Below, in pieces: positions 23,516-35,313 of a stretch of 35,480 nt of DNA (its first letter is position 1; each line of letters begins with the position of its first letter). The DNA lies in IMG/VR virus record IMGVR_UViG_3300012272_000008, positions 1 through 35,480 of that record; one strand, 5' to 3'. This DNA is from a virus. A model generated the notes under the pieces. It made no database searches. It was not told the DNA's origin and worked only from the letters and a program-made list of their open reading frames with translations. A program made the translations under genes and the position numbers.

Positions 23516-23673
23516 TGTGTAAACTCCTTCTTGCTTTTCAATAAGAACCCTATAGGTTCCTTCTTAGTCTCTAGCCTAAAGTACTCTCCGTCACTTCGTA
23601 AAACTTTAGTTTCCCTAACGTCATCAGATTCAAACACTGTGACAGACTTAGGTTCGTAGGCATACCAGCTCAT
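23512..23673 (-). CDS. Small hypothetical protein between ThyX and DUF3310
   Basis: 53 residues from an ATG in an ATGA overlap with the thyX stop, behind GGGGGAG. It reads as one or two small beta sheets (SWYAYEPKSVTVFES, GEYFRLETKKEPIGF). The stop again overlaps the next start (ATGA). No family recognised; coupling on both sides supports it as a real gene. Confidence 0.6.
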   Translation of the reverse strand: MSWYAYEPKSVTVFESDDVRETKVLRSDGEYFRLETKKEPIGFLLKSKKEFTQ

Positions 23674-24518
23674 TGCGTAAGACTCCCCCAGCTTACAGGG
23701 AACAATGGTTCGACAATAGCCTTGATCTGCTCCGCTACCTGTGCTGTCTCTGCTTGGCTGTCGCCCCATGAACGAGTGTTGTACAACGATGCCCAAGCAT
23801 AGAGATTACCTGACCATACAAACTCTGTGTACATTGACTGAGGGAGGACCATACGGGCTTGCTCAGGGGCTACCATCTTTAATAACAGCATTTCGTACAT
23901 TTCTTTACATAAGCCATACCCGTCTTCTGGTGTAAAGTAAGGGCCGTCTTCTAACTCAAGAATCCCTTCGACAACGCCAGAAGACCCCTGCTTCTTGTCA
24001 GCACTACGTCCTCGCCATACCTCAGGAGTATAGAACTCTGGGTCACTGTCTACGTAACGACGAGACACTTCAGACCAAGGATTAAACCCTGCTGTGTGTT
24101 TCTGCAGTTGACGAGCAACAAAGAGTGGAACCTTGAAGTGTAACTTGATCTGACCACCGTTAGCGAATGGTACCCAGTGACAAGGCATACGCTTAACGTG
24201 GTTGAGCAGTTTACGCAGTTCTCTGTCTAACTCCCTGCACTCTCCTTTTGTAACAGGGTAACACGCAAAGTCATCAAAGCTCTGCCGTTCCCCGCAGGTT
24301 GTGATCTCCTCGACAAGCTCCTCCCAGTCCTTAGTGGTACAACCACGAGCTAGGAACTTGATGAGGTGTGTGTCTCTCTTGCCTAGCTTTGGGTCGGTAA
24401 GATCAACACCAGCATCATTCTGGTTATATTCCCAGTCACTTTCGCTAGAGAAGCTTACTCGTGCTGCGTTAACACAGGCCAAATCACTGCCCATATGCTC
24501 AAGGTATTTAACTTCCAT
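23670..24518 (-). CDS. thyX: Flavin-dependent thymidylate synthase ThyX
   Basis: 282 residues. Makes dTMP from dUMP with FAD, NADPH and methylene-tetrahydrofolate. Family features: CVNAARVSFSS near the N-terminus, FVARQLQKHTAGFNPWSEVSRRY (134-155) at the ThyX motif, and the C-terminal GDSQAETAQVAEQIKAIVEP helix. The cellular RHRxxS signature is replaced by KHTxGF, which I judge a phage variant because the SEVSRRY part is kept. The start lies 11 nt inside the preceding HNH gene, with no strong independent ribosome site. A 20-codon remnant resembling its N-terminus lies upstream of the HNH gene (24985-25047). Confidence 0.9.
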   Translation of the reverse strand: MEVKYLEHMGSDLACVNAARVSFSSESDWEYNQNDAGVDLTDPKLGKRDTHLIKFLARGCTTKDWEELVEEITTCGERQSFDDFACYPVTKGECRELDRELRKLLNHVKRMPCHWVPFANGGQIKLHFKVPLFVARQLQKHTAGFNPWSEVSRRYVDSDPEFYTPEVWRGRSADKKQGSSGVVEGILELEDGPYFTPEDGYGLCKEMYEMLLLKMVAPEQARMVLPQSMYTEFVWSGNLYAWASLYNTRSWGDSQAETAQVAEQIKAIVEPLFPVSWGSLTQ

Positions 24519-24963
24519 CTCTTACGTCCTTCATCCAGGTTAACATTCTTTCATGTACTTCTATTGAGCTATTGCTTTTAATACGGTTAGCCTTGCGGGA
24601 TAGCCAATTTACATTGCCCTGTACATACCCTAGTTCAGGTAGATACCTGTCTAGTTCTGCCGCAAGCTCATCTTTTCTGTCTGTGTACAGGCTTAAAGGG
24701 AGGTCTAGAACAGGGCACCTGCCTGTCCAGATACTCTCAAGGTATTCTGATGTTAAGTCAAAAGGAACGTCTAGACTTCCCGCCCTTGTTTTAGCCCTCG
24801 TACACCTGTGTTTAAAGGGTTTAGTTGTTCTGTGGCTTTCGTACCTTGCTCTTTGTGCGTCAGCAGCGCACACTTTACAGTACGGGCGTAACCTACCAGA
24901 CCTATCGTTTCTAGCGGGGAACTCTTCTTTTGGTTTATCTACCTTGCAACCCTGACAAATCAT
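24508..24963 (-). CDS. HNH-type endonuclease, probable free-standing homing gene
   Basis: 151 residues. An N-terminal zinc finger (C3, C6, C29, C32) and a basic linker lead to a C-terminal block ELDRYLPELGYVQGNVNWLS then ANRIKS, typical of phage HNH/colicin-like nucleases (DR-x-x-P-x-x-GY-x-x-GN-V-W-S-x-x-ANxIK). It has its own AAGGAG site. It lies between nrdJ and thyX, two favourite homing targets, overlaps the thyX start by 11 nt, and separates thyX from an upstream remnant of its own 5' end. Confidence 0.78.
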   Translation of the reverse strand: MICQGCKVDKPKEEFPARNDRSGRLRPYCKVCAADAQRARYESHRTTKPFKHRCTRAKTRAGSLDVPFDLTSEYLESIWTGRCPVLDLPLSLYTDRKDELAAELDRYLPELGYVQGNVNWLSRKANRIKSNSSIEVHERMLTWMKDVRDGS

Positions 24964-24984
24964 ATTACTTCTCCTTCTGATGGT

Positions 24985-25047
24985 CTAGTTATAACATAGA
25001 CTACCTAGTAAGTCAGACCCCATGTGATCCTTGTAAGTTACTTTCAT
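24985..25047 (-). pseudogene. Remnant of the thyX 5' end, cut off by the HNH gene
   Basis: A 20-codon frame, MKVTYKDHMGSDLLGSLCYN, preceded by GAGGA at good spacing. Its first 13 residues match the ThyX start (MEVKYLEHMGSDL) at 9 positions, while the DNA is clearly diverged. It lies on the nrdJ side of the HNH gene, where the thyX start would be without the insertion. The peptide probably has no function; the ribosome site may still serve as a leader. Could a chance resemblance explain it? Unlikely, because HMGSDL is identical and in register. Confidence 0.75.
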
Positions 25048-25087
25048 CGTGTATTCCTCGATGTAGTTTCAATTAGGCGAGCAGTTT

Positions 25088-25210: not shown

Positions 25211-25227
25211 TTAGAGGGCTACGTCAA
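25192..25227 (-). promoter_or_regulatory. Leftward sigma70-like promoter, copy 2 of 3
   Basis: On the - strand TTGACG (25227-25222), 17 nt, TACTAT (25204-25199), then TA, 2 nt and GTA. The -35 box includes the last codons and stop of nrdJ (GAC TTG ACG TAG). It would drive thyX, phoH and their neighbours, through the HNH insertion. Confidence 0.7.
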
Positions 25228-27120
25228 GTCCACAATCTCGCATGTGCCGCCAGAACATGCAAAAGTACTGGAACCTTTGGTAGTGTCTTCCAGTTCGTAG
25301 TCTGTTAGCTTAGTCCAGTCGATAGACTTAGGCATGAGAGCTAATGCTTCCTCGTAGGTTGCCTTGTCAATCTCCTGGTATGGAGCTTGCTGGTATGTGT
25401 GATCAGAGTGAGGTAAGAAGGATACACCTGACATCTCATCAAAGTGTTTGTACACAAAGGCACCTACTTCCATCCACTCCTCATCACGAACAGTGACAGT
25501 GATAGAGGGTTTGTGCTCACACCAGTGACGTTGGTAAGCAAGCCATGTCTCCATCTGTTCTACGGCAGTGAGGTCATCACGAGTGACGCACTTGTTAGGA
25601 GACTTAACAGGGAAGCTAAAGACTGACGTAGTGTCAGGCTTCATAACACAGGGTTCCATTGGGATACCTGCATCAGCCATGAACTGTGTCAGAGGGTCTT
25701 TGTTATCGCCTCGGACGGTACGGATATAATACTCGCTGTGGCGAGGATGGATACCTGAAGCACTATCCACAAGCTGAGATACCGTGCCCGATGGTTTGAC
25801 GCAGGTGATCGCAGTACTTTGAGGAACACCCAGGATAACAGACCATTCAGCGTTAGTAGTAACAGCGACACTACGAAGATGCTCAAGAGTCTTCTCCAGT
25901 CCTTTGTTCTTCAGGGTCATCAACGGGTTGTCCATGATCCCTGTTAGCGATACACCAAGCAGTCGTTCTTCCTTGGTGTTAGCCTCCCACTCAGCACCCA
26001 AGTAGGGGAAGCTAGTGTAGGTAGACTGGACAGTACCAAGGATAGTAGCTAGACGTACCTTACGTTCGATGTCGTCAATGCTATCTGTTGCACGAATGAC
26101 ACACTCCGTCAGATTGCAAAATTGTCGTGGGCGAAGGATAATCTCAGAGCAAGGGTTGGTACCAAACTCCCAGTTAGGGTCACGTCGTCCATTCTTAGCT
26201 GCCTGAGCCTTACTAGCCACACGGTTAAATACACCACGCTCACCAGACTTACTCTCGATTAGGGAAGACCACTCACGAATGTATGTCTCCATGTCAGGCT
26301 TCTCAGTGTAGCACACAGAGTTGTTAGCCAGAGCACGGTGACCTGAGGTCTCCCACCAGCTACCTGACTTAGCGTGACGCATACGGTCATCAGACAGGTT
26401 AGACAGAGAGATCATTGCAGAGCGACGAACACCCCCGACTACTACCACTTCACCAATCTTACACATGATGTCGTGACACTCAATAGAGGAGAGCTTACGG
26501 CCTTGTGCCCCCTTGAATACAGCAGTGACAAAGTTGAAGAGCTCAACCAAAGGAGCAGGTCCAGAGGCACGACCACCAAAGGTCTTAAGCTTAGCACCAG
26601 CAGGGCGTACGTTGGATACATCCCAGGTGGGTAGAACACCTTCGTACAGAGCCTTGATAACTTTACGGAGAGCTTTGGCCCAGCCTTCCTTACTGTCAGC
26701 CACAACGATAGTCGCTGAGCTCTGAGTAAACTCACTAGGTACAGTAGGAAGCTTGGAGACATACTGTCGTTCAACTGAGAACCCTACACCTGTGCCACAG
26801 AGGAGGATAAACATAGCCTTGTCGAAGTCTGTTGGCTTCTCTACTGGTGTATACGCGCAGTTATACAGACAGGTGTTGTCACGCTCCATAGCACCACCTG
26901 CTGTCATCAAACCACGCATACTGGGCATCACTTCGAGAGACAGGATAGCCTGCTCTAGTTGATGTGTTGTTGGATGATCAAACCCATCTGGAATTACGTT
27001 AGTAATGTAACGGGATACTGTCTCTCCCCATGTCTCTCGTCGTTGTTTATCTTCTAGCCACCGACTGTAGCGAGATGTGGCAATGAATGTTTGATAATCT
27101 GTTGGTAGGTAGTTACTCAT
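25219..27120 (-). CDS. nrdJ: Class II (adenosylcobalamin-dependent) ribonucleotide reductase
   Basis: 633 residues. Reduces ribonucleotides to deoxyribonucleotides using a B12 radical. Active-site loop NPCSEI (322-327; C324, E326) and CNL (C335) are in place, an N-terminal cysteine pair lies at C84/C88, and the C-terminus ends with ACSGGTCEI (C622, C627), the swinging redox pair of the monomeric class II type. There is no N-terminal ATP cone. No separate small subunit gene is present, as expected for class II. Start ATG follows the preceding stop by a few bases. B12 dependence fits phages of marine Roseobacter-type hosts. Confidence 0.93.
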   Translation of the reverse strand: MSNYLPTDYQTFIATSRYSRWLEDKQRRETWGETVSRYITNVIPDGFDHPTTHQLEQAILSLEVMPSMRGLMTAGGAMERDNTCLYNCAYTPVEKPTDFDKAMFILLCGTGVGFSVERQYVSKLPTVPSEFTQSSATIVVADSKEGWAKALRKVIKALYEGVLPTWDVSNVRPAGAKLKTFGGRASGPAPLVELFNFVTAVFKGAQGRKLSSIECHDIMCKIGEVVVVGGVRRSAMISLSNLSDDRMRHAKSGSWWETSGHRALANNSVCYTEKPDMETYIREWSSLIESKSGERGVFNRVASKAQAAKNGRRDPNWEFGTNPCSEIILRPRQFCNLTECVIRATDSIDDIERKVRLATILGTVQSTYTSFPYLGAEWEANTKEERLLGVSLTGIMDNPLMTLKNKGLEKTLEHLRSVAVTTNAEWSVILGVPQSTAITCVKPSGTVSQLVDSASGIHPRHSEYYIRTVRGDNKDPLTQFMADAGIPMEPCVMKPDTTSVFSFPVKSPNKCVTRDDLTAVEQMETWLAYQRHWCEHKPSITVTVRDEEWMEVGAFVYKHFDEMSGVSFLPHSDHTYQQAPYQEIDKATYEEALALMPKSIDWTKLTDYELEDTTKGSSTFACSGGTCEIVDLT

Positions 27121-32000: not shown

Positions 32001-32017
32001 TGTTCTCCTTAGTGTGT
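32001..32017 (-). repeat. 17-nt direct repeat, copy before the RNA ligase gene
   Basis: ACACACTAAGGAGAACA on the - strand, identical to 31434-31450. It contains the stop of the endonuclease VII-like gene and the ribosome site of the RNA ligase gene, so the RNA ligase gene is framed by two identical leaders. Confidence 0.85.
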
Positions 32018-32425
32018 GTGTTTCTCTAGGTAGTCTATAGCTTTCTGCAGTCCTTCAACTGTGTCTCCAAGGCTGCCAATACTCTTGTTACACATACGAC
32101 ATAACAAACCTCTTACTTCTTTAGTAGAGTGACAGTGATCAACGCAGAGGTAGGTCTCTTTATTAGGCTCACCACAACATCCGCATAGTCCTTCCTGTTT
32201 TTTGTACATCCTATCGTAGTCCTCAAGGGTGATGCCATACTTAGTTTTTAACCATGACTTTCTCTGTTGTGTTACAAAGCTGGGGTTTGCCTTGTTCTTA
32301 GCTACGTGACACACTTTACAGTCTGTGGCGTAACCATCCTTAGCAGATTTTTTCCTAAAGAAGAAGTCAAAGGTTGCTGGTTTATACTTCTTACAATGCT
32401 TACACCGTTTATCAGTGGGTTTCAA
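32009..32425 (-). CDS. Endonuclease VII-like HNH nuclease (TTG start)
   Basis: 138 residues. Zinc cysteines at C8, C11, C36, C39 and around C84, C109, C112; core VDHCHSTKEVRGLLC (95-109; D96, H97, H99), MCNKSIGSL, and the YGITLEDYDRMYKKQEG helix in front match the endonuclease VII family. T4 gp49 of this family resolves branched DNA; small stand-alone versions are often mobile. The TTG start at 32425 overlaps the polymerase stop by 14 nt and has GGGAGG well placed. It adjoins the intron-bearing polymerase gene, so either role is possible. Confidence 0.8.
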   Translation of the reverse strand: MKPTDKRCKHCKKYKPATFDFFFRKKSAKDGYATDCKVCHVAKNKANPSFVTQQRKSWLKTKYGITLEDYDRMYKKQEGLCGCCGEPNKETYLCVDHCHSTKEVRGLLCRMCNKSIGSLGDTVEGLQKAIDYLEKHTH

Positions 32426-32893: not shown

Positions 32894-33189
32894 CGTTTTT
32901 ATTCAACTGAGTTCGTTAAGCTCAGCCCGTTCTCTTATGAACTGCTACACGTCGCCGCATAGACTAGACTATATCATCATCCTGCTTACAGCAGGAGCCT
33001 CGCGCTTCCACCCACTTGGGTGTACTCTACTAACTTCCATCTTTCGATGTGCTTTCGATAGTCGTTGCACCTTCTAAGTAATCAATAGCTTTTTGTTTAC
33101 TTAGCTTGGCTCAGGATTACCTACTAGAGGCCTCCCCTGAGTTCACGAGGTTTTAATCGAAGGGTTACCCCTAAGTTATCCTAGCTTTA
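32894..33189 (-). mobile_element. Group I intron in the DNA polymerase gene (296 nt, no internal ORF)
   Basis: Exon 1 ends TTATCT and pairs with GGATAA (33181-33176) inside the intron, giving P1 with the terminal U-G pair; the intron ends in G at 32894. Core elements on the - strand: AATCCTGAGCCAAGC (Q-like, 33118-33104), GTGCAACGACTA (R-like, 33070-33059) and GATATAGTC (S-like, 32975-32967); GACTA pairs with TAGTC as P7, and CCTGC-TGTAA-GCAGG just before S fits P8. AAAGC near the 5' end can pair with GCTT of exon 2 (P10). Splicing restores AKTFIYAWLLGAG, matching T7 AKTFIYGFLYGAG. An extra hairpin after R suggests subgroup IA. Confidence 0.9.
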
Positions 33190-34624
33190 AGATAAAAGTT
33201 TTGGCGTGGTCCCGAGTAAGGTGCTCAAGTCCGAGTGCTGCACGGTTAACGTTGTGGATATCTGTTCCATCTTCTTTCCTCCCTTCAGTGATAGCCTTAA
33301 CGTACTCGTCGTTCTTTAGGTAGTGAGCTAGGATACGTAGCTGGATAGACTCAGCGTCTGTACCTACTAGCCAGTTGCCTTCGTCCACTGTAAACATAGC
33401 ACGTAGTTGACCGTCGAACCTCTCCTTAACAAGGTCAACAGCAGTGACTACTTCCCCCTGAAATGGTGAGGAGATATTAGCTAGGTTAGGAGACGAGTGG
33501 GACATACGGTGGGTCCATGCCCCGATATGCCAGAAGTTAGTGCGGATACGTCCGTCCCTCTCACACTCCCTGATACGCTCCTCTAGTGGCTTTAGTCTAC
33601 CGTTGAGGCACAACCACTCAGCAAGGTCACGAGCACCCTGAGGGGCTGTGCTTGGGAGTGTCTCAAGGTTCTCATCGCTTACCGTCCAGCCGTAGTGTTC
33701 GAACTCTTCCTTCTTAGCGTCATACGTCTCCTGAGTAAGGACTTTCTTACCCCACTTGTCACCTACTGCACCCCGTTGAGAGAACTTATAGTGTGCCTTA
33801 GACTTCTCAGTAGGGCTCCACCCTGCATCCCAGAGTTTATCGATACGATCCAGGTGTGACCCAGGGTTAAACGATACCCAATCGAAACACACCAGCTCAT
33901 CACCGTCGATCACAGTCTTAGGGAAGTTATCCATAGCGTTAGCTGTGGTAGCGTAGAGCTCACCGTCTGCCTTAGTACGGTACTGGATACGGTGAACCTC
34001 CTTAAGCTCAGGTGGGAAAGCACGTTGCATCCCTGCGCTAAGTTCGTCAAGTCTGTCTTGTATCTGAGGTAGGACTTCGTTAGCTAACTGAAGGTTGAAC
34101 TTGAAACCATTGTCGTGCATCTTCTTACACAACATAGCCATCCGGTGCTCAGTCTCCATAGACATAGCCCAAGCAGGGTCGTCGATATACTTCTTGTACT
34201 TATTGTATATCTTTGTGCCTAGGTCTACGTCATCCTTACAGTAGGACAACATCTCTGGTGTGTACTTCTCCCAGTCATTGAAGACTGTCTTAGGCTGCCC
34301 AAGGGAGATACCGATCTCATCTAGTCCGTGACCGTTGTACCCCATGTAGTTAACAAGGCGGGACACAACAAAAGTATCACAGATTTTAAAGGGATCAATC
34401 ACGGTGGACCCGAGTAGTTTGTTTATCACGGGACCATCATAGCTTATACCGTTGTGGAATACCCAGCGGTCTACTGTCTTTGCGTAGTCAATGAAGGTTT
34501 CATACCCTGAGTTGAAGTCCCACGTTTTGTAGGACTTAGCTCCAAGTTCTTTATTGACCACACACCACAGGTTGTCAGGGTCTAGCCCATCTGTTTCGCA
34601 ATCCGAGACTACTACTAGGGTCAT
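33190..34624 (-). CDS. DNA polymerase (family A), exon 1
   Basis: First exon, 478 whole codons plus one base. The N-terminal 3'-5' exonuclease shows Exo I VVSDCETDGL (D8, E10), Exo II VFHNGISYDGP and Exo III YCKDDVD. The polymerase part shows MSHSSPNLANISS, motif A GTDAESIQLRILAHYL, and the start of motif B RDHAKTFI before the intron. This is the T7 gp5 type replicative polymerase. The start has AAAGGAG. Unspliced reading would end after four intron codons (LKLG, stop 33176), lacking motifs B and C. An HNH gene lies on each side of the polymerase region. Confidence 0.93.
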
Positions 34625-34627
34625 GTC

Positions 34628-34783
34628 CTACTCCTTTACAAAACCTATTTCTTGTTTACACGTGGTGGGGTTCCAGTAAACAGTCATCGTTGAGAGGTCG
34701 CCCACTTTATACCCAAAGCATTTTACTTTACGAATGTTTAGGTAGGCGGTTAAGCTGGGTGGTTTCTGTGGGTAGTTGTCCAT
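34628..34783 (-). CDS. Small hypothetical protein before DNA polymerase
   Basis: 51 residues from an ATG sharing TAATG with the HNH-AP2 stop, behind AGAAGGAG: MDNYPQKPPSLTAYLNIRKV, then KCFGYKVGDLSTMTVYW and a short end. It ends 3 nt before the polymerase start and its last codons hold the polymerase ribosome site. No family recognised. Without the HNH-AP2 gene it would follow the helicase gene directly in the same TAATG arrangement. Confidence 0.6.
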   Translation of the reverse strand: MDNYPQKPPSLTAYLNIRKVKCFGYKVGDLSTMTVYWNPTTCKQEIGFVKE

Positions 34784-35313
34784 TAGAACTCCTTCTCTGA
34801 TAGCATGTTTAAAGCCTCTTTGTTAAACCCCAGTTCTAAGGCGGCTTCGTTATACCTTAGAGCTGCTTTTTTATCGCTGTCGTAGGCACCTAAGTATAGG
34901 AGTTTACCTTCATACCTTACCTGGGCTATCCACTTAGACATACTTTTATGATAAGAAACTCCTCGGTACTTCGAGTACCCTCCTCTGGGCTTGCAGTAAG
35001 ACCTTTGGTTTAAACCCGGCGACACCACTCTTAGATTTTCTACTCTGTTGTCATCCTTTACACCGTTTATGTGATCAATCTGGTCACTTGGCCATTCGCT
35101 GTACCTCAAGTACCACACTACTCTGTGTGTGTAAAACTGCGTACCTTTAATCTTAACAGACCTGTAACCCTTTCTATACGTACCTGCTTCAGAACCTACA
35201 GTTGCGTTGTGCACTGGGGATACTTTCCAGTAAAGCTTGCCATCCTCCTCTAACCTAAAGTTTTTAATCATCAGCAAGAGTTGTTTTTCCGAAGGTACAC
35301 TTTCTTTACACAT
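34783..35313 (-). CDS. HNH endonuclease with AP2 DNA-binding domain, probable homing gene
   Basis: 176 residues. HNH core: THRVVWYLRYSEWPSDQIDH (62-81) with INGVKDDNRVENLR; AP2 domain ~113-160: YRGVSYHKSMSKWIAQVRY, LYLGAYDSDKKAALRYNEAA. This pairing is typical of phage homing endonucleases. It lies between helicase and polymerase genes. Its last six residues, LSEKEF, equal the helicase end, in different codons, and lie beyond the usual AP2 end (LN). The start has AAAGGA, encoded by the end of the helicase gene. Confidence 0.85.
   Translation of the reverse strand: MCKESVPSEKQLLLMIKNFRLEEDGKLYWKVSPVHNATVGSEAGTYRKGYRSVKIKGTQFYTHRVVWYLRYSEWPSDQIDHINGVKDDNRVENLRVVSPGLNQRSYCKPRGGYSKYRGVSYHKSMSKWIAQVRYEGKLLYLGAYDSDKKAALRYNEAALELGFNKEALNMLSEKEF

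Follow-up and report, generated by a model that had tools for sequence, protein, structure and literature searches.

A putative start-swapping homing element with an HNH endonuclease gene at the 5' end of phage thyX

Exchange of gene ends by mobile endonuclease genes has been known in fungal mitochondria. Mobile open reading frames (ORFs) swap the 3' end of atp6 in Allomyces macrogynus, and those of atp6, atp9, cox2, and nad3 in Glomus sp. (PMC3630166). In the Glomus hybrids, the native end is 91-98% identical to that of the sister species, and the inserted end is 64-81% identical (PMC3630166). In phages, the free-standing enzymes SegF, SegG, and MobE of T4 perform intronless homing; their genes are located between other genes, and their cut sites are hundreds to thousands of bp away (PMC2988022). 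In the cases of Aeh1 mobE/nrdA and T4 mobA/gene 60, the nuclease gene lies within a coding sequence, and two polypeptides are left (PMC2988022). Another arrangement is the collaborative homing of F-CphI at psbA, where the target in its own genome is protected by a group I intron (PMC6083498). There is also an artificial counterpart, the synthetic home-and-rescue drive HomeR, which is applied to an essential gene and uses a re-coded end of 22-27 residues as the rescue (PMC7968924). Here, an HNH gene at the 5' end of a viral thyX is compared with these systems.

The window analyzed here is the whole 35,480-nucleotide stretch of the IMG/VR virus record IMGVR_UViG_3300012272_000008. On its minus strand, on which all features of this locus are encoded, nrdJ is followed by a spacer, a 20-codon frame, an HNH gene, and thyX. 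The gene preceding thyX, nrdJ (25219..27120), encodes a class II ribonucleotide reductase. Beyond the spacer, the stranded ribosome site of the native thyX, GAGGAA (25048..25062), is found at the same place as AAGGAA before the thyX gene of L086, an IMG/VR viral contig that is a sister of the window and has no HNH gene at thyX. The 20-codon open frame (24985..25047), MKVTYKDHMGSDLLGSLCYN and a stop, is composed of a stranded native thyX start (hereafter, the stub) and seven chance codons. Only its first 38 or so bases (25010..25047), corresponding to codons 1-12 and part of codon 13, MKVTYKDHMGSD-L, are derived from thyX, and its last seven codons, LGSLCYN, are sequence of the inserted element read by accident. 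The left end of the element (24964..25009) contains a weak promoter-like pair, CTGACT-17-TATAAC (9/12), the -35 half of which overlaps the end of the stub, and the ribosome site of the HNH gene, AAGGAG (24971-24976). The HNH gene (24508..24963) encodes a 151-aa HNH (beta-beta-alpha-Me) endonuclease of the PHROG 3322 family (phrog_3322, E 1.6e-28). The 5' end of thyX overlaps the 3' end of this gene. The intact thyX (23670..24518) encodes a flavin-dependent thymidylate synthase of 282 aa (PF02511, E 2.3e-29), which starts with MEVKYLEHMGSDLACVN. Codons 1-16 of this gene (24471..24518) are an imported start overlapping the HNH stop, and the AAGGA ribosome site for this new start (24527..24531) lies inside the HNH codons for ..WMKD... 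A first-pass annotation of the window had assigned the arrangement to 24508-25047, which is correct for the stub plus the HNH gene; the imported start extends to about 24471.

The same annotation had reported that nine of 13 residues agree between the frame and the start of the working ThyX. This was confirmed, and another codon is used for six of the seven identical residues that have degenerate codons. Chance likeness of the frame to a thyX start was ruled out by shuffling and by the match to L086: a thyX-start profile gave 38.9 bits to the frame, whereas no more than 11.4 bits were reached when the upstream region was shuffled 200 times. A group I intron or an intein around the HNH gene was also rejected, since Rfam detected no group I intron at the thyX locus of the window (its sole match is a polA intron at 32945-33199) and the working ThyX is read from one continuous gene that needs no splicing. 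A split gene of the T4 type was rejected as well, since ThyX is intact in one chain as judged from PF02511. As for polA of the window, its group I intron (RF00028, 83.8 bits, - strand) interrupts the gene after AKTFI, and a free-standing EndoVII-type HNH ORF (32009-32425, - strand) comes after the last polA exon, a layout that resembles collaborative homing. An ORF with HNH_3 and AP2 domains upstream of polA (34783-35313, - strand) is likely a further homing endonuclease gene.

L086 provides an empty site for comparison. The genes before nrdJ share 95.9% DNA identity between L086 and the window, and their thyX products share 84% protein identity. In L086, thyX begins with MKVTYKDHMGSDL directly after the nrdJ spacer, which leads into ATGAAAGTAACTTACAAGGACCACATGGGGTCTGACTTGGAAGTAGTAAACGCAGC (MKVTYKDHMGSDLEVVNAA). 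In a blastn alignment of 98 nt, part of which is spacer, the stub region of the window is 87.8% identical to the same place of L086 (E 8e-27), and the frame differs from the L086 thyX start at only one of 38 bases before the match breaks. The working head of the window thyX differs from L086 at 19 of 48 bases, against two of the next 39 (Fisher p=1e-4), and the window gene rejoins L086 at codon 17. Thus, the check proposed in the first-pass annotation, a comparison with HNH-less relatives, came out as it had predicted: the L086 thyX begins with codons that agree with the remnant DNA rather than with the working start. In KZY1, a more distant phage relative without the HNH gene, the thyX start MKVTYKDHMGTDL is also found right after nrdJ. 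The nrdJ gene itself differs between the window and L086 (no DNA match); its flanking genes match at 82-96%.

Two further comparisons come from Streptomyces phages. By tblastn with the HNH protein as the sole query, matches were found directly before thyX in Targaryen (53%) and Belfort (47%), which represent two subfamilies of Stanwilliamsviridae. Stranded starts are present upstream in both phages, LTKIDVLDQGYVRLVDHMGSDL-G and a stop in Targaryen and VTERVNVLDKGYVRYIKHMGDDL-V and a stop in Belfort. The HNH gene is absent at the same place from Warpy and Jay2Jay, sisters of Targaryen, and from SparkleGoddess and Comrade, sisters of Belfort, as it is from L086. Between Targaryen and Warpy, two of 66 bases differ in the stub, 21 of 69 in the head, and 16 of 600 in the body of thyX (p=3e-13, head vs body). 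Sixteen of the 23 head codons are changed with one amino-acid change, and the sequences rejoin sharply at codon 24. Between Belfort and SparkleGoddess, the differences are 3/69 in the stub, 25/66 in the head, and 1/600 in the body (p=2e-26, head vs body), and identity returns exactly after the Leu of HMGTDL. In these two phages, the thyX bodies are 97-99.8% identical to those of the sisters, and the new starts are 62-70% identical. Together with L086, the Targaryen/Warpy and Belfort/SparkleGoddess pairs support the original suggestion that an HNH gene entered at the 5' end of thyX and left the old start stranded. Both Targaryen and Belfort have one extra small gene between the stub and the HNH gene, gene 25 (L002:2258-2450) and gene 10 (L003:2228-2449), respectively, and each begins at the break point of the stranded start. 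A search for relatives of Targaryen gene 25 found none. The sole relative of Belfort gene 10 is in Emma1919, where it begins at the native thyX start codon and precedes a LAGLIDADG gene. Between small gene 10 and the HNH gene, Belfort also has a second thyX-start-like piece, MVQFLDGFSYMGNDLY and a stop (L003:2422-2472), which is perhaps the stranded start of the donor captured with the donor gene, or a trace of serial insertion.

The location of this HNH gene is recurrent. Two IMG/VR scans with HNH profiles, performed without conditioning on thyX, yielded 35 strong relatives (E 1e-20 or better). Of these, 26 are located directly 5' of thyX, usually overlapping it, two just 3' of thyX (L022 and L023), and three in DNA polymerase genes; the downstream genes were confirmed as thyX by PF02511. 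A later scan starting from thyX added L129/L130 and L148. Stranded starts were found in at least 11 lineages (the window, Targaryen, Belfort, L011, L012, L032, L034, L035, L037, L038, and L148), which span Zobellviridae-like and Streptomyces phages. In all 11, the break of the stub is no more than a few codons from the HMGSDL motif; in L034, it slightly precedes the motif. Even L037, the thyX start of which is unusual (QIIVQ-NPD-PPTGSDL), has a stub of the same unusual type. The first-pass annotation had named an independent conserved 20-codon leader peptide as an observation that would speak against its interpretation. However, at all 11 stub loci, the peptide is a thyX start as far as the break, and beyond it the loci have unrelated residues in differing numbers. 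In L012, the stub and the HNH gene form one continuous frame, so that the nuclease is now initiated from the old thyX start. No stub was found at the thyX-5' HNH genes of L013, L014-20/42-45, L021, L033, L040/41, and L129/130. In these lineages, useless DNA may have been lost, or some of the insertions may be of another kind. From the break onward, several copies of the element have a promoter-like pair; next come the ribosome site and gene of the HNH enzyme, and last the new thyX start. The promoter-like pair at the element start is TTGACA-17-TATAAT in L035 (12/12), scores 10/12 in L032, L034, and Targaryen, and only 9/12 in the window.

The insertion point, the stranded native start, the imported start, the intact ThyX, the optional presence of the HNH gene, and its recurrence can be read directly from these sequences. 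We consider it highly likely that they represent a start-swapping homing element, that is, an HNH unit that inserts in thyX and supplies an altered start, keeping ThyX whole. The unit opens with a left end that often contains a promoter; a ribosome site and the HNH gene follow, and the unit closes with a foreign thyX 5' end of 16-23 codons, which is joined in register to the resident thyX. The protein is kept and the DNA is altered. In the proposed mechanism, co-infection would expose a thyX without the element to the HNH enzyme, which would cut it near the HMGSDL codons. Donor-templated repair would then use the old start as the left arm and the thyX body as the right arm, by which the HNH gene and the new start would be copied in together. 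The new start would restore ThyX, making splicing unneeded, and, if it is without the cut site, the carrier would be spared self-cutting. Such an element could be compared to a mobile intron that, in place of splicing, brings a spare and altered first exon. The initial idea was that the HNH gene had brought, or forced, a recoded copy of the start. A new start is indeed present, and it was probably imported with the nuclease from another thyX lineage rather than recoded in place. Since the histories of head and body differ sharply, the nuclease gene most likely carries the foreign head along when it passes from phage to phage.

Other explanations can be given for the same loci. Phage genomes are mosaic, and the HNH gene and the foreign start may have arrived by ordinary phage recombination, the enzyme not being the driver. 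The copy resembles the thyX start of any divergent relative, and the new start of Targaryen is 93.4% identical over 121 nt to those of Paradiddles and NootNoot, which have no HNH gene there. However, such passive hybrids are hard to reconcile with 11 lineages of Zobellviridae-like and Streptomyces phages sharing, exactly or nearly, the position of the break. In addition, the left side retains the start of the recipient itself, as in intron homing, and no unit lacks the HNH gene, which overlaps or abuts the new start. We therefore regard passive recombination as unlikely. Recoding in place, in which the inserted element made a second copy of the resident start, which then changed under selection for nuclease resistance, would agree with the 16 changed codons for one amino-acid change in Targaryen and with the conversion of the ATG of HMG into a Cys or Gln codon at some loci. 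It seems improbable, however, because the contrast between nearly identical bodies and strongly diverged heads in Targaryen and Belfort requires import, not mutation since the split from the sisters, and because starts of the Paradiddles type match the Targaryen copy at 93%.

It is also conceivable that the 20-codon frame is a functional leader or upstream frame regulating the HNH gene or thyX, and that its likeness to ThyX is secondary. The frame indeed has a start codon preceded by a ribosome site, and the stub of L012 initiates the nuclease. Nevertheless, wherever an empty sister is available (three loci), the DNA of the stub before the break is that of the thyX start of its own lineage, and L086, Warpy, and SparkleGoddess largely refute this explanation. 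Neither the sequence nor the length after the break is shared, and several lineages with an HNH gene 5' of thyX are stubless. A leader peptide is thus very hard to credit.

Paradiddles (L135) and NootNoot (L141) deserve separate consideration, since they have a recoded thyX start and neither a stub nor an HNH gene of the PHROG 3322 family beside thyX. Between Paradiddles and Liandry, 18 of 600 bases differ in the thyX body and 18 of 69 in the head; 14 of the 23 head codons are changed without any amino-acid change. The border of head and body in Paradiddles is at the same codon as that in Targaryen, and several Liandry genes just before thyX are missing in Paradiddles. Under the start-swapping reading, the start of Paradiddles and NootNoot would be a cured, presumably resistant allele. 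For these two phages only, the start may instead be of a donor type that never carried the HNH gene, a less probable alternative that we nevertheless take seriously. The absence of both the thyX-adjacent HNH gene and the stub would fit a donor type, but thyX beyond codon 23 is Liandry-type (97%), and the border codon shared with Targaryen and the loss of genes just before thyX also argue against it.

Codon usage of the new starts bears on the question of resistance. In all stub/copy pairs taken together, 116 of 157 residues agree, and 82 of 108 identical degenerate residues differ in codon. In contrast, the stubs differ in codon from their empty sisters at only 1/10, 2/21, and 0/16 of such residues. 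The copies differ from the empty type at most codons around HMGSDL. Any distant thyX start would show a similarly high synonymous divergence, and the codon differences need not reflect selection for resistance. The Met codon of HMGSD (ATG) has no synonym, so that synonymous recoding is impossible at this position. Here, Met in the stub corresponds to Cys in the copy in L032 and L148, and to Gln in L035. Cys occurs at this position in four of 19 HNH-linked thyX loci and in two of 119 HNH-less ones (p=0.003, with shared ancestry uncorrected). These replacements are suggestive of escape from the nuclease. One of the two HNH-less Cys loci, L121, has an EndoVII-type ORF of another family directly upstream of 1007, which overlaps the HCGSDL-type thyX.

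The AF2 model of the HNH protein (pLDDT 94.8) has HNH nucleases as its closest solved folds in VIA-align, namely PacI (Z 7.0), Gme HNH (5.7), Hpy99I (4.6), and EndoVII (3.5-3.6), together with Cas9 HNH domains. All Z values are below 8 and give support at the fold level only, and at this level the protein is predicted to have the beta-beta-alpha-Me fold. No Pfam family matches the HNH protein of the window, whereas PHROG 3322 does, and a PDB sequence search with the HNH profile gave nothing useful. The family shares the motif LDR..P..GY..GNV..S..AN..K, and D105, R106, P109, G112, Y113, G116, N117, V118, S122, N126, and K129 are among its invariant residues. The canonical HNH histidines are not evident, and Arg is found in place of the usual first His. 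A scan of bacterial genomes found only three weak relatives. In the gene tree, HNH genes cluster by location, with weak deep support.

Other nuclease genes are found at the same place. LAGLIDADG genes lie directly 5' of thyX in Gilson (L081), Emma1919 (L140), and Braelyn (L078), and also in L080 and L079. Gilson and MeganTheeKilla belong to the same species, and their near-identity stops at the thyX start codon and returns about five codons in; the break spans a small gene and the LAGLIDADG gene. In Gilson, the small gene now begins at the native thyX ATG, and the new beginning of ThyX is MKVLDKG; Emma1919 is alike. In Braelyn, a foreign thyX head extends to about codon 31. Thus, start-swapping at thyX is apparently found in more than one nuclease family. 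An EndoVII-type nuclease gene 5' of thyX in Daubenski was examined as a further candidate and rejected, since its thyX keeps the ordinary LTKIDVLDQGYVRLVDHMGSDL start and no swap is evident. On the basis of these genome comparisons, we lean towards the broader proposal that natural home-and-rescue drives are widespread in phages. At least two unrelated nuclease families (HNH and LAGLIDADG, perhaps also EndoVII) would invade the thyX start, strand the native start, and supply a cut-resistant one. They would sometimes capture a cargo gene, leave resistant nuclease-free alleles, and change the amino acid where a codon lacks a synonym.

The thyX element works like the fungal mobile-ORF hybrids. 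In both, an endonuclease ORF brings a foreign and mostly synonymously diverged gene end, and the native end is stranded and remains closest to the sisters. However, the fungal cases involve the 3' or C-terminal end of organellar genes and LAGLIDADG or GIY-YIG enzymes, whereas the thyX cases involve the 5' or N-terminal end of a phage gene and HNH enzymes (apparently LAGLIDADG enzymes too). Unlike in the fungal 3' cases, swapping of the thyX 5' end means that the initiation signals are swapped too. Because the fungal group is defined by exchange of 3' ends, the thyX element is not a member of it. Like SegF, SegG, and MobE of T4, the thyX HNH gene is an optional nuclease gene beside a conserved gene of nucleotide metabolism and is absent from close relatives. 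Unlike them, the thyX unit is embedded in its target gene, where the cut presumably occurs, and takes the place of the gene start. It also differs from the split genes of Aeh1 and T4 in that ThyX remains in one piece, with its lost end provided by the element. Protection of the target is provided by an intron in the case of F-CphI, and would be provided, if at all, by the altered gene start in the case of thyX. HomeR is engineered, CRISPR-based, directed to a 3' end, and used in insects, and its likeness to the thyX element is one of working principle, not of descent. A literature search found no precedent for swapping of 5' ends, for end-swapping in phages, or for end-swapping at thyX, which is weak evidence since most subscription papers were outside its coverage. 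Within the literature searched, 3'-end swapping in fungi is known, and the 5' end, the phage hosts, and thyX as the target are apparently new.

The empty-site sisters show that a selfish nuclease gene can reside inside a gene without an intron or an intein, by means of a spare gene end. The principle of engineered home-and-rescue drives would thus have a natural counterpart, including candidate nuclease-free alleles that keep the recoded start. The Targaryen/Warpy and Belfort/SparkleGoddess pairs offer a concrete system in which drive, rescue, and resistance could be tested. Finally, the N-terminus of phage ThyX can have a history separate from that of the remaining gene, with consequences for both phylogenetic trees and the annotation of start sites.
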